A stretch of DNA of 64,000 bases, taken from NCBI GenBank assembly GCA_029974015.1, contig JARKUF010000014.1:64217-128216 (forward strand), read 5' to 3'. Below the pieces are notes generated by a model. It was not told where the DNA came from and made no database searches. It saw only the letters and a program-made list of their open reading frames with translations. Shown here in pieces: positions 11,324 to 62,590 of this stretch; the first letter of the stretch is position 1; each line of letters starts with the position of its first letter. A program made the position numbers and the translations under genes. Source of the DNA: Spirochaetota bacterium (GTDB lineage: Bacteria > Spirochaetota > UBA4802 > JAGODF01).

Positions 11324-11337
11324 GGCATTAAATGGCC

Positions 11338-11505
11338 TTTAAGGAACCCATATAAATTAAGCTCAGACACAAAAACTGTGTTTACCAGCCCGCCGAAGGG
11401 GGGGCAGGAAAACGAAAGTATCCGAAGCTGCCTGAACTCATTCAATACTAACAAATATCGGTATCACGTCAATTCAAATTAGGGGACCTCTAAAAATTAG
11501 TTTTC
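11338..11505. repeat. Two-hairpin intergenic repeat, degenerate copy
   Basis: This stretch has the parts of the window's recurrent intergenic element: an AT-rich arm near GGAACCC, a GC-rich arm (ACCAGCCCGCCGAAGG...CAGGAAAACG) and a second AT-rich arm GGGGACCTCTAAAAATTAG. It fills the gap between the response regulator and the small ORF at 11584. The GC-rich stem is imperfect here. Confidence 0.6.
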
Positions 11506-16071: not shown

Positions 16072-16172
16072 CCAAAGGCAACCTCAAAATTTGTTTTTCC
16101 CGCACGCCTTCGGCGGGGGAAAAACATGGTTTTTATGACTGCCCTTTAATTTTTAGAGGTTCCTCTAAAATA
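16072..16172. repeat. Two-hairpin intergenic repeat copy
   Basis: GGCAACCTCAAAATTTG is followed by the GC hairpin TTTTTCCCGCACGCCTTCGGCGGGGGAAAAA and then TTTTAGAGGTTCC. The outer arms GGCAACCTC/GAGGTTCC form imperfect terminal inverted repeats. It lies in the divergent gap between the MBL-cNMP gene and the DUF350 gene. Confidence 0.7.
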
Positions 16173-20040: not shown

Positions 20041-20215
20041 GTTAAGGGAACTTAAACTTCAATTTTTTAAGATTCCCGAATATTGTAATTGCTGGAGTAA
20101 TTGGCGCTTTATTTTTTCACAATTATTCTCCTTGTCAATACTTTAAGGACGCCTATGTAAAAATTACGGGCACCTCAAAATTAAAGGGATTCCTGTTACA
20201 ACTCAGACAAAAAAA
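20041..20215. repeat. AT-rich remnants of the intergenic repeat
   Basis: The 318-base gap between the MCP and SDR genes contains an inverted repeat GGGAACTTAAA...TTTTTTAAGATTCCC (about 20046-20077) and a later partial arm (GGCACCTCAAAATTAAAGGGATTCC at about 20169). Both resemble the AT-rich hairpin of the window's repeat family, but no GC-rich hairpin is present. The gap must also hold the two divergent promoters; I cannot place them confidently. Confidence 0.5.
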
Positions 20216-30597: not shown

Positions 30598-30694
30598 TGG
30601 AACCTCCAAAAAAAAAATTAAGGATATTCACAAAAATCAGGTTTACCAGCCCGCCGAGGACAGGCGGGTAAACCTGATTTTTTGAGGTTGCCAA
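30598..30694. repeat. Intergenic repeat copy with long hairpin
   Basis: AAAAATCAGGTTTACC-AG-CCCGCC pairs with GGCGGG-TAAACCTGATTTTTT, a stem of more than 20 base pairs. It is flanked by GGAACCTCC on the left and TGAGGTTGCC on the right, the ends seen in other copies. It lies directly upstream of the WYL regulator start and could act as a terminator or leader structure. Confidence 0.75.
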
Positions 30695-31822: not shown

Positions 31823-32005
31823 GTGTGGGTTTATCCTTGGTGGGGGGCACTTACTGTCTTCATTACCGTATATATCCCCTTCTTCGTGTTTTTTCTGTAC
31901 TGTTACGACTGGAAGCCACGGACACAGCAGGCCGTGATTGGGGGCCTTTTCGGCATCAACACTGCAGCAATGATCCTGTTTGCGGGCTTTCTTGGCTGGA
32001 TATAA
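31823..32005 (+). CDS. Small hydrophobic protein (60 aa), possibly a gene remnant
   Basis: I do not recognise this. The frame is strongly membrane-like: two hydrophobic segments (FITVYIPFFVFFLYCY and GGLFGINTAAMILFAGFLGWI) separated by a charged turn DWKPRTQQA. The only start is GTG without a clear ribosome site, so it may be a 3' fragment of a longer gene or a very short membrane protein. Its location next to an intron fragment supports a decayed region. Confidence 0.4.
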   Translation: MWVYPWWGALTVFITVYIPFFVFFLYCYDWKPRTQQAVIGGLFGINTAAMILFAGFLGWI

Positions 32006-32053
32006 ACTGGTGGAGCGCCGACATACGCATCCATGCTTCGTGGATTAAAATAT

Positions 32054-32180
32054 TGACTTTTTTACCACAATTTTACATTATAATAGTAAGTTGCCGGTAT
32101 GCGTGTATTTAGGGGTTCTGAAAAAGCCGCGTTTTTGTGCGACGCGAAAATTTTAAGGCCCCTGTCATGGGGCTTTTTCC
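32054..32180 (+). ncRNA. Candidate short transcript: promoter-like boxes and terminator
   Basis: TTGACT and TATAAT occur on the plus strand (about 32054 and 32080) but with a 20-base spacer, longer than ideal. About 75 bases on there is an intrinsic terminator, GGCCCC-TGTCAT-GGGGC-TTTTT (32157-32180). Between them a CGCG...CGCG mini-stem occurs. No ORF fits, so a small RNA is possible, but evidence is weak. The 3' part may run antisense to the group II intron fragment. Confidence 0.25.
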
Positions 32181-32538: not shown

Positions 32539-32611
32539 GGTGGCTGACGGGAATTGAACCCGCGACAACAGGAGCCACAATCCTGGGCTCTGCCAACTGA
32601 GCTACAGCCAC
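32539..32611 (-). tRNA. tRNA-His (GTG)
   Basis: The minus strand reads GTGGCTGTAGCTCAGTTGG...GGATTGTGGCTCC...GGTTCAATTCC CGTCAGCCAC with a GTG anticodon. The acceptor stem GTGGCTG/CAGCCAC is perfect, the discriminator is C and a G lies at position -1, both expected for tRNA-His. The CCA end is not encoded (CCT follows). Confidence 0.95.
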
Positions 32612-32719: not shown

Positions 32720-32855
32720 CCTCAATGATTAGATTAGAGATACTCTAATGAATTATAACTACTGGCATATTCAAGATTAAGGTTTTTCCGCCCGCCGAAG
32801 GCGGGCTGAAAAACGAAGTTTTTGTGACTGCCGTTAATTTTTTTGATTCCCATAA
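32720..32855. repeat. Two-hairpin intergenic repeat copy
   Basis: An AT arm (GATTAGAGATACTCTAATG) is followed by the conserved linker ATAACTACTGGCATATTCAAG. The GC hairpin GTTTTTCCGCCCGCCGAAGGCGGGCTGAAAAAC and a closing AT stretch ending in GATTCCC come next. The linker aligns with that of the copies at 45385 and 49019. It lies between tRNA-His and the hydrogenase protease gene. Confidence 0.8.
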
Positions 32856-32943
32856 ACTGGCACTGCTGGCAAAATCAGAATTCGGGATTCCCCACCAGGT
32901 GAAGACCGGCTGGAAATCCTGAGCTCTGATTCAGTGAAACATA

Positions 32944-41750: not shown

Positions 41751-41935
41751 TATGGGGACCTCAAAAATTTAATTTTTTAAGGTTCCTTATTGTTATTCAA
41801 AGACAAAAGTACCGTAGATATGCACAGAAACGATATTTAATAGCCTTTTTTTCAACCTGTTTCCCCAAACCCCCGGAAAAGATGTTAAGAAAACACCCCC
41901 ATAAAAACATATTTATCAGCCTGCCAAAGACTAAT
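41751..41935. repeat. Intergenic repeat copy, AT hairpin only
   Basis: GGGGACCTCAAAAATTTAATTTTTTAAGGTTCC (about 41754-41787) is the AT-rich hairpin of the family. A degenerate GC part (ATTTATCAGCCTGCCAAAGAC) follows near 41910. It separates the hydrogenase operon from the divergent zinc-ribbon gene; nothing else is seen in the 460-base gap apart from promoters. Confidence 0.6.
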
Positions 41936-45384: not shown

Positions 45385-45600
45385 TGGGAATCTCTAAAAT
45401 TAATTTTTAAAGTTATCATCACTTGTTATTATTAGCATACTCAAGGCTTGGGTTTTTCCGCCCGCCGAATGCGGGCGGAAAAAACCAATTATTAGAGGTT
45501 GCCAACTGTTATTCTTTAACTGCTGACACACTCTGGACACTGTTTTTCCCGCCAGCCTTCGGCAGGCTGGAAAACTTACGAATTAGAAGTTGTCTATAAA
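45385..45600. repeat. Two adjacent repeat units upstream of the FecR gene
   Basis: The 380-base gap holds an AT hairpin (GGGAATCTCTAAAATTAATTTTTAAAG), linker (ATTAGCATACTCAAGGCTTGG) and GC hairpin GGTTTTTCCGCCCGCCGAATGCGGGCGGAAAAAACC ending ATTAGAGGTTGCC. A second GC hairpin TTTTTCCCGCCAGCCTTCGGCAGGCTGGAAAA follows at about 45541-45573. It is the clearest tandem arrangement of the family here. Confidence 0.82.
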
Positions 45601-48969: not shown

Positions 48970-49018
48970 TTTATCCACTGGCAATGTAGTGAAAAAAGGC
49001 CCCGGGTGTCAATAAAAA

Positions 49019-49150
49019 TTGGGGACCTGAAAAAATTAAATTTTTGAGGTCCCCATAAATTGTAACTGTTGGAATACTCAGGACTTAGTATTTCCGCCCG
49101 CCGAAGGCGGGCGGAAATACTAAATATTAGAGGTTGTCAATTGTTGTAAG
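49019..49150. repeat. Best-preserved copy of the two-hairpin intergenic repeat
   Basis: The unit reads GGGGACCTGAAAAAATTAAATTTTTGAGGTCCCC (AT hairpin), then TGTAACTGTTGGAATACTCAGGACTTA (linker). Next come GTATTTCCGCCCGCCGAAGGCGGGCGGAAATAC (GC hairpin, perfect), then TAAATATTAGAGGTTGTCAATTGTT. Other copies in the window are variants of this. It lies between the tRNA pair and the 3' end of the flagellar operon. Confidence 0.88.
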
Positions 49151-52668: not shown

Positions 52669-52779
52669 GACCTTCACCTCTGAAAATAGCGTTTCACGGG
52701 CCCGGATGAAACCGTTAACCGTGCCATCATACCGCCCCAAAAGGCCCCTGGGCGGAGATGGTAATCTAACCGGCAAACT

Positions 52780-53172
52780 CTACAAATTTGTTTTCCCCGC
52801 CCGTTGAAGGCTGGCGTAAAAACCAAATTGTTTAATTTGCCTGTAGTTATAATTTCGGGGAATCTTAAAATTGAATTCTTAGAGGTTCCCTTACCGTTAT
52901 TGTCGGAATAAGCTATATGTCTCTAAAGAGGAAAAAGCCGTCTCAATATTTCCACAGCATGGGGAACAATTATCGCAGTACATATTTTGTCATACCTGGT
53001 AAAATGGAAAAATTATATTGACATTATCAGCTATACATTCCATTCTAAGGCAACCTCTGATTATTTGGTTTTTTACCCGCCGAGGGTGAGCGGAAAAACC
53101 CGGGTACTGAGTTTGCCGCTTGTAACTATTTATGCGAACCTTAAAAATTTTTAATTTTTAAGGTTCCCCAAA
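52780..53172. repeat. Cluster of degenerate intergenic repeats
   Basis: The divergent gap between flgG and the MORN-repeat gene contains at least four partial arms. They are a GC hairpin with loop GTTGAAGG (52790-52822), an AT hairpin GGGGAATCTTAAAATTGAATTCTTAGAGGTTCCC (about 52857-52890), GGCAACCTC...TTTTTTACCCGCCGAGGGTGAGCGGAAAAAC (about 53050-53100) and AACCTTAAAAATTTTTAATTTTTAAGGTT (about 53137-53166). No gene is seen here. Confidence 0.7.
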
Positions 53173-53193
53173 GCTATCGTTTGGAGAGTTGTC

Positions 53194-54483
53194 ATGAAGA
53201 AATCCTTAATCCTTTTAATGGCCGCATTCATGGCCGTAACACTTTCATGTAAAAGCACCGACACAGGAAGCAAAACGGGGCCCAAAAAGGTTGAGAAAAT
53301 AAAAGACGGCCCCGGAAAAATATTCTGGGATGGCGACGGCTCCCTCAAAGGATCGGGTAATTTCAAAAATTTCAAAAAAGAAGGCGAATGGACCCTTTAC
53401 CATCGTCACTCCGGCGAAAAGCTTGCCGTGGGCAATTACCAGGACGACAAGCAGAGCGGTAAATGGACTTTTTTTTATAAGGGCGGCCAGAAGATGACTG
53501 AGGGCGAATTCATCGAAGACCAGCGCACGGGCCCCTGGGTGGAATTCCACGAGAAGGGCGAGAAGAAAGCTGAAATGAGCTATATAATTATTACCAAAGT
53601 AATTCCAGAATTCGATATGGTTGAACGCCTCGGCGTTCTCCATGGCCCAAAGACTTCGTATTATCCTTCAGGCAAAGTGCATAAGGAAGAAACCTATAGA
53701 GAAGGAAATCTTACTGGAGCTTCAAAAGAATATTACGAGGACGGCCGCCCCAAGGAAATATCCCAGTACGCCGCGGGAGAACACGACGGTATGTCCAACA
53801 CATGGTGGCCATCCGGGAAGCACAAAGAAAAGGGGAATTTTTCACGGGGCAAGCGCAACGGCATCTGGCACTTCTATCATGGAAACGGTGCCCTTCACAT
53901 GAAAGGCCAGTTCCAGGAGAACAACCAGGTAGGCCCCTGGAACTACCAGTCGGCCCTGGGACAGCCCATGAAAGAAGGGCGTTTCAAACTTGAAACAGTG
54001 ACTGTCCAGAAAAAAACTTCAACACGGAGCAATGAGGACGGCTACTGGACCTTCTACAAAGTCGTCGGTAACAGAAGCGAGAAGGCCATGGATATAATGC
54101 TCGCCAATGGAATGATAGACGGCACGAAGAATGCGAAGCTGTACGAAGGGGGAAAGCTCAGCGGCGAAGGGGCCTTCCAGATGGGCCTTGTCAGGGCGAT
54201 CTTCGAAATTGTCCAAAACGGTTCGGCCAAGGGCACCATGACCAGCACCACAGTGCCCCCCGATGAGTTTGAGAAAAAAATCACTTATCGCTGGACCGGC
54301 GAATGGGAGATGCCCAAGAAGAACGGCAAATGGACTTTCTACTATCCGAACGGAAAAGTCAAGGCGGAAGGCGAATATCAGATAAACAAGATGAACGGAG
54401 AATGGAAGTTTTATACTCCCCGGGGCGACCTTGATGCGGAAAAATCAGGGATGTACCGGTTCGACAAGAAGAGTAAATTTTAG
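53194..54483 (+). CDS. MORN-repeat lipoprotein
   Basis: The 429-aa protein has a lipoprotein signal (AAFMAVTLSC). More than ten MORN-2/YwqK-type repeats follow, built on the pattern YYxxGxxxxxGxxxxGxxxGxWxxY (GEWTLYHRHSGEKLAVGNYQ, GKWTFFYKGGQKMTEGEF, GIWHFYHGNGALHMKGQF, GKWTFYYPNGKVKAEGEY). These short beta-hairpins make a long surface-exposed sheet. The family is frequent in spirochaete and Bacteroidetes envelopes, usually without a known partner. GGAGAG precedes the ATG. A terminator follows at 54541. Confidence 0.85.
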   Translation: MKKSLILLMAAFMAVTLSCKSTDTGSKTGPKKVEKIKDGPGKIFWDGDGSLKGSGNFKNFKKEGEWTLYHRHSGEKLAVGNYQDDKQSGKWTFFYKGGQKMTEGEFIEDQRTGPWVEFHEKGEKKAEMSYIIITKVIPEFDMVERLGVLHGPKTSYYPSGKVHKEETYREGNLTGASKEYYEDGRPKEISQYAAGEHDGMSNTWWPSGKHKEKGNFSRGKRNGIWHFYHGNGALHMKGQFQENNQVGPWNYQSALGQPMKEGRFKLETVTVQKKTSTRSNEDGYWTFYKVVGNRSEKAMDIMLANGMIDGTKNAKLYEGGKLSGEGAFQMGLVRAIFEIVQNGSAKGTMTSTTVPPDEFEKKITYRWTGEWEMPKKNGKWTFYYPNGKVKAEGEYQINKMNGEWKFYTPRGDLDAEKSGMYRFDKKSKF

Positions 54484-61769: not shown

Positions 61770-61892
61770 TGGGTACTTCAAAAAAACACGTTTAATAGTT
61801 CTCATTAACTTATAAGTGATAATGAACTTGGGACTTAGGTTTTTTCGCCCGCTTTCGACAGGCGGAAAATATCAATCATTAACCAATTATAG
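61770..61892. repeat. Degenerate intergenic repeat copy
   Basis: The AT part (CTTATAAGTGATAATGAACTTGGGACTTAGG) and the GC hairpin TTTTTTCGCCCGCTTTCGACAGGCGGAAAATA match the linker and hairpin of the family with several changes. It separates the hypothetical gene at 61402 from the lipoprotein at 61901. Confidence 0.65.
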
Positions 61893-62467: not shown

Positions 62468-62534
62468 TGCAACAATTCCAATACTACTTTCAATCCTAAA
62501 CGAGATTATTGTCAATTGATTTATGGCAAGTATA

Positions 62535-62590
62535 ATAATCATGTTCCCCGCCCGCCGAAGGCGGGCGGGGAACATGATTATTGGCGGGGT
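62535..62590. repeat. GC hairpin repeat copy at the end of the selenoprotein operon
   Basis: CATGTTCCCCGCCCGCCGAAGGCGGGCGGGGAACATG is a perfect hairpin of the family, here without the AT arm. It sits about 30-60 bases downstream of the small selenoprotein ORF (minus strand) and could terminate it. Confidence 0.8.

Follow-up and report, generated by a model that had tools for sequence, protein, structure and literature searches.

A two-hairpin intergenic repeat of a Spirochaetota genome is very probably a MITE derived from an IS5-family element

The window analyzed here is a stretch of 64,000 nucleotides (C33:64217–128216) from the draft genome of an uncultivated spirochaete (Spirochaetota; G000, 48 contigs totalling 3.26 Mb), and at about 49 kb it carries a repeat of ca. 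120 nt (118–120 letters) in which an AT palindrome, a linker, a GC hairpin and the right end follow each other in this order. The initial annotation had described the anatomy of this copy in the same way, and the true extent of the unit (49021–49138) lies slightly inside the range given there (49019–49150). The following features were located at this copy (a dot in place of the strand marks features without orientation):

49021..49138, +, the focal full-length copy of the repeat (profile match 1–119, E 2e-30)
49017..49020,., left target-site duplication AATT (flank comparison)
49139..49142,., right target-site duplication AATT (flank comparison)
49021..49037, +, left terminal inverted repeat (copy alignment, TIR pattern search; ends shared by the L056 IS)
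49021..49054, +, AT-rich palindrome, formed by the left TIR and an internal inverted TIR copy (alignment, hairpin/pairing analysis)
49055..49084, +, conserved linker (alignment of copies)
49085..49123, +, GC hairpin with a perfect 18-bp stem and a GAA loop (hairpin analysis)
49122..49138, -, right terminal inverted repeat (alignment of copies)

The edges of the unit are sharp (GGGAACCTC...GAGGTTGCC), as seen in 30 copies aligned end to end; the terminal inverted repeats (TIRs) read GGGAACCTCTAAAAATT and the reverse complement of AATTATTAGAGGTTGCC, and the consensus of the family is GGGAACCTCTAAAAATTAAATTTTTGAGGTTCCCATAAATTGTAACTACTGGCATACTCAGGACTTAGGTTTTCCCGCCCGCCGAAGGCGGGCGGGAAAACCTAATTATTAGAGGTTGCC. 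The unit has no transposase ORF and exists in many near-identical copies, and no repeat copy in the window gave a match to Rfam at the gathering threshold. Using a profile built from 83 distinct full-length copies, all other sites where the initial annotation had placed related copies were recovered, at 11.34–11.50, 16.07–16.16, 20.05–20.11 (weak), 30.62–30.71, 32.72–32.92, 41.75–41.79 (left palindrome only), 45.39–45.59, 52.77–52.89, 53.05–53.17, 61.77–61.88 and 62.51–62.58 kb. These copies, each found by profile match and, where indicated, by further analyses, are:

11337..11504,., degenerate, overlapping copies (also ORF model)
16077..16163, -, shortened copy
20047..20114, +, degenerate left part, weak (E 0.002)
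30619..30692, +, incomplete copy that runs from the linker to the right end
32721..32823, +, copy with a variant right end (...GTTTTTGTGACTGCC)
32835..32923, +, degenerate copy adjoining the previous one
41751..41787,., palindromic left end alone
45386..45503, +, full-length copy (also flank analysis)
45517..45593, +, second copy immediately after the preceding one, incomplete (from the linker to the right end)
52772..52890, -, diverged full-length copy (also flank analysis)
53049..53168, -, full-length copy, with an ORF start 25 bp further on (also flank analysis, ORF model)
61771..61880, +, diverged, near full-length copy
62505..62584, +, GC-hairpin part, with a perfect 23-bp stem at 62534–62582 (also hairpin analysis)

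The end type GTTTTTGTGACTGCC was also met on GC-hairpin copies in L013, L022 and L027 besides the window (32805–32833), which suggests another sub-family with different ends.

A DNA search of the whole genome with the 49-kb copy returned at least 58 matching places (best E 6e-37 besides the query itself), the best other copies being 82–88% identical to it among the matches scored. In 464 kb of the same genome the profile gave 225 matches that merged into 104 loci, with 40 of the matches being full-length, and the same 464 kb in reversed order gave zero matches. As these stretches were partly picked near known copies, the resulting density of about two loci per 10 kb is an approximate estimate and not a census. 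The numbers for these 464 kb rest on the profile, since listing TIR pairs by a strict regular expression misses most of the degenerate copies, and solo 34-bp palindromes were too few to show mobility of their own. The initial annotation had regarded the repeats as one element and had reasoned that this would fall if the linker were not conserved beyond the copies in the window; the linker is conserved at the matching places elsewhere in the genome, and this objection therefore fails. Its statement that the copies always lie between genes holds for most of them (mean coding overlap of 0.21 versus a coding fraction of 0.87 overall, in a crude ORF model), while 20 of the 104 merged loci have their midpoint within an ORF.

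The flanks of the copies are unrelated beyond the consensus edges, with the exception of a 4-bp target-site duplication (TSD). A perfect direct duplication of this length borders 33 of the 82 full copies for which flanks were compared, as against a mean of 2.7 and a maximum of 10 when the right flanks were shuffled 2000 times; more than half of the copies are without a perfect one. There was no such excess of perfect flank matches at lengths of 2, 3, 5, 6, 8 or 9 bp, and in the per-position matrix of the flanks identity is elevated mostly along the 4-bp diagonal. The duplicated sites are AT-rich and approximate WTAW, the commonest being ATAA, TTAT, TTAA and ATAT. With at most one mismatch, the TIR GGSRACCTCTAAAAATT has 179 occurrences in G000 and 25 in G016 (Spirochaetes bacterium ADurb.BinA120), as against 0 and 1 in the respective reversed controls.

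A search for DDE_Tnp_1 in G000 yielded a single fragment, namely a C-terminal stretch of 54 residues from an IS5-like transposase (L053), followed after approximately 135 bp by the same TIR. Used as a query, this fragment led to an intact relative in the congener G001, where a complete IS of 1265 bp (L056:547–1811) encodes a transposase of 339 aa, is bordered by TTAA on both sides and has the ends GGGAACCTCTAAAAATTAA... and ...AATTTTTAGAGGTTCCG, its first 19 nt being those of the repeat. The transposase belongs to the IS5 family (NCBIfam NF033581, 256.8 bits at a cut-off of 140; Pfam PF01609 and PF05598), and the same or nearly the same TIR stands beside its relatives in G006, G012, G020, G030 and G037. 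Apart from the TIR, the interior of the repeat does not resemble the IS. The G000 and G016 assemblies, both of them drafts, yielded no intact transposase of this group; multicopy ISs are easily lost from draft assemblies. We consider the repeat family to be, with high confidence, an IS5-derived non-autonomous MITE that was almost certainly moved by an IS5-family enzyme, and we infer that such a transposase could mobilize it in trans. The MITE-like terminal inverted repeats suspected in the initial annotation are thereby supported and refined to a TIR of GGGAACCTCTAAAAATT, a TSD of 4 bp and a parent in the IS5 family.

The two hairpins of the element differ in how well they are kept. Pairing in the GC hairpin (0.894) exceeds the shuffle maximum (0.829), while the AT 'hairpin' shows no excess over shuffles (0.736 vs. 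0.728) and no covariation, and the left TIR pairs with the right one no better than expected (0.732 vs. 0.731). In the alignment about 80 cells of the GC stem are changed on both sides with Watson-Crick pairing kept, and on a tree made from the other columns 64 changes lead from one Watson-Crick pair to another, as compared with 15 and 6 in the controls; these event counts are upper bounds, as a tree from about 79 columns is weak. Covariation is confined to this hairpin, and so are flips of its loop, which reads GAA in 49 copies and the reverse complement TTC in 16. Placed on the tree, the loop state needs 16 changes, which is the maximum, and shows no clustering (p(≤obs) 1.0), whereas 7 of the 10 variable columns outside the stem, as well as the genome of origin, cluster at p < 0.01. 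The stem pairs 70–100 and 73–97 do cluster on the tree, so that the paired variation is in part inherited. Mismatches in the GC stem are about equally often G-T (51) and A-C (43, both summed), which gives no indication that a single RNA strand is under selection; a strand-specific role as RNA is not supported.

These data bear on what the repeat is as well as on how its hairpin is maintained. Palindromic, intergenic repeats in high copy number could also be of the REP/BIME type and mobilized by a Y1 tyrosine transposase (RAYT), a route raised in the initial annotation, and G000 does contain one Y1 transposase gene (a 217-aa frame; L161, G000:C13:2868–3098, minus strand). However, no repeat copy was found within approximately 1.5 kb of this single gene, the family has long TIRs and a clean 4-bp TSD, and exactly these ends are borne by a DDE IS (L056). 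RAYT/IS200-type transposition does not leave a 4-bp TSD. We thus regard a RAYT-driven origin as extremely improbable. It is likewise very unlikely that the repeats are independent intrinsic terminators or mRNA-stabilizing hairpins which resemble each other by selection, although stable hairpins do lie near gene ends and the GC stem carries compensatory changes. Selection of this kind is at odds with the sequence conservation of the linker and of both ends, with the TSDs on full copies and with the balanced G-T and A-C mismatches; moreover, no T-run follows the hairpin of the best copy, which has no terminator-like site, and convergent gaps hold no excess of repeats (gene contexts: 38 tandem, 32 divergent and 13 convergent). 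The judgement of the initial annotation that this is one element and not a set of terminators is thus upheld.

For the upkeep of the GC hairpin, the MITE identity being untouched by the choice, we weighed two accounts. In RNA genes, loop inversions and compensatory changes of several bases at once in perfect stems have been traced to template switching (PMC8794818), and because template switching during replication yields both paired changes and loop inversion, its recurrent action would be the most likely way in which the GC hairpin is renewed in pairs. We tentatively go one step further and propose that the hairpin could be a natural recorder of template switching, in which single replication events would rewrite both arms jointly and invert the loop, the stem staying perfect without RNA selection. 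Elsewhere in the order (G017), MITEs that share these ends and have a hairpin inside would then be expected to behave alike. Alternatively, the hairpin may be under selection (e.g., for transposition or against read-in to a transposase) in combination with gene conversion between copies, a possibility that we take seriously while having some doubts. Selection on the hairpin would likewise keep the stem paired, and the loop could be inverted through conversion with a copy in the opposite orientation, but the loop state is scattered with the maximum number of changes where the majority of the remaining variable columns form clusters on that tree, and the element's AT palindrome shows no such upkeep of pairing.

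The distribution of this IS5-derived MITE is patchy. Among the 28 relatives examined, the full element is absent from the genomes of the same genus or family (G001–G003) and abundant in G016, which belongs to another family of the order. The consensus of 13 copies from G016 and that of 70 copies from G000 are identical at 118 of 120 positions, whereas the coding DNA of G000 is only 64–74% identical to that of its own congener and family members. Taken together, these sequence comparisons suggest horizontal spread between families as the simplest reading. Comparing loci in sister genomes for empty sites and target duplications had been proposed in the initial annotation; in such comparisons the element is absent from the intergenic region of G003 that is syntenic to window positions 52669–53295 (398 vs. 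627 bp) and from a syntenic intergenic region of G029 when compared with G016, the junctions in both cases being not base-exact due to the divergence of the intergenic DNA. The corresponding comparison with G001 was interrupted by contig breaks.

Based on these results, the family would have arisen as follows. An autonomous IS with the ends GGGAACCTCTAAAAATT would supply an IS5-type DDE transposase, which would recognize both TIRs and insert the element into AT-rich 4-bp targets (about WTAW), duplicating the 4 bp. The MITE would have reached its high copy number apparently after horizontal acquisition. In the window genome the family appears to be inactive at present and is probably decaying, because the assembled genome is without an intact transposase of its group.

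MITEs with IS5 ends are a known kind, e.g., BrickBuilt, MITE239 and MITE464 of Porphyromonas gingivalis (PMC4596501), which are likewise non-coding, occur in many copies and have IS5-type TIRs but no internal transposase, while the family described here is new and its internal hairpin is unusually well kept. The TIRs of the P. gingivalis elements differ from those of the spirochaete MITE, and BrickBuilt has internal tandem repeats with variable or absent TSDs, in contrast to the fixed unit of about 120 nt described here, which has a GC hairpin inside and a TSD of constant length (4 bp). The intact IS of L056 (NF033581, transpos_IS5_4) has the ends GGGAACCTCTAAAAATT and the 4-bp TSD in common with the MITE, but is autonomous, 1265 bp long and equipped with a transposase gene, its interior being unrelated. 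REP/REPIN sequences with their RAYTs (PMC3733652, PMC3116915) also form hundreds of intergenic, non-autonomous palindromes; they are, however, short, tagged with GTAG/CGTC and, in the GTAG type, served by a Y1 transposase, as opposed to the TIR, TSD and DDE transposase of the spirochaete repeat. The template switching of PMC8794818 concerns RNA genes, whereas here paralogous copies of a mobile DNA element are involved. In a search of openly licensed papers for MITEs in spirochaetes, none was described for this group. The MITE reading accounts for the abundant two-hairpin intergenic repeat of a spirochaete genome and ties it to a concrete parent IS. It also shows that one IS5 end sequence circulates across the order, apparently spreading horizontally from one family to another, and the dozens of paralogous copies with perfect hairpins offer usable data on whether such hairpins in bacteria are kept by template switching or by selection.

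Small elements with the ends of the MITE and different interiors were seen in other genomes of the order. G017 has one of about 108 bp with its own internal AT-rich hairpin and the TSD ATAA (L176:524–631, G017:C42), and G012 has one of 109 bp with the same IS5-type ends (L180:247–355, G012:C12). Several contigs of G007 and G017 break approximately 60–85 bp inside the TIR (e.g., G007 C30:70–86, C33:70–86 and C34:70–86), as if multicopy elements with the MITE's ends had collapsed there. In the window, the minus strand of 32232–32390 matches the Rfam model group II intron D1-D4-3 (93 bits) next to a tRNA gene at 32539–32611; the intron may be a remnant, since the nearby frame at 31825–32112 is short. 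A different intergenic repeat of about 165–175 nt (GTTGTTGCGTAACTGACAAAAATGTCATCGCGAGAAGG...) lies directly beside two MITE copies at L138:13771–13948 (G016:C4), and dozens of its copies are present in G006 and G024.
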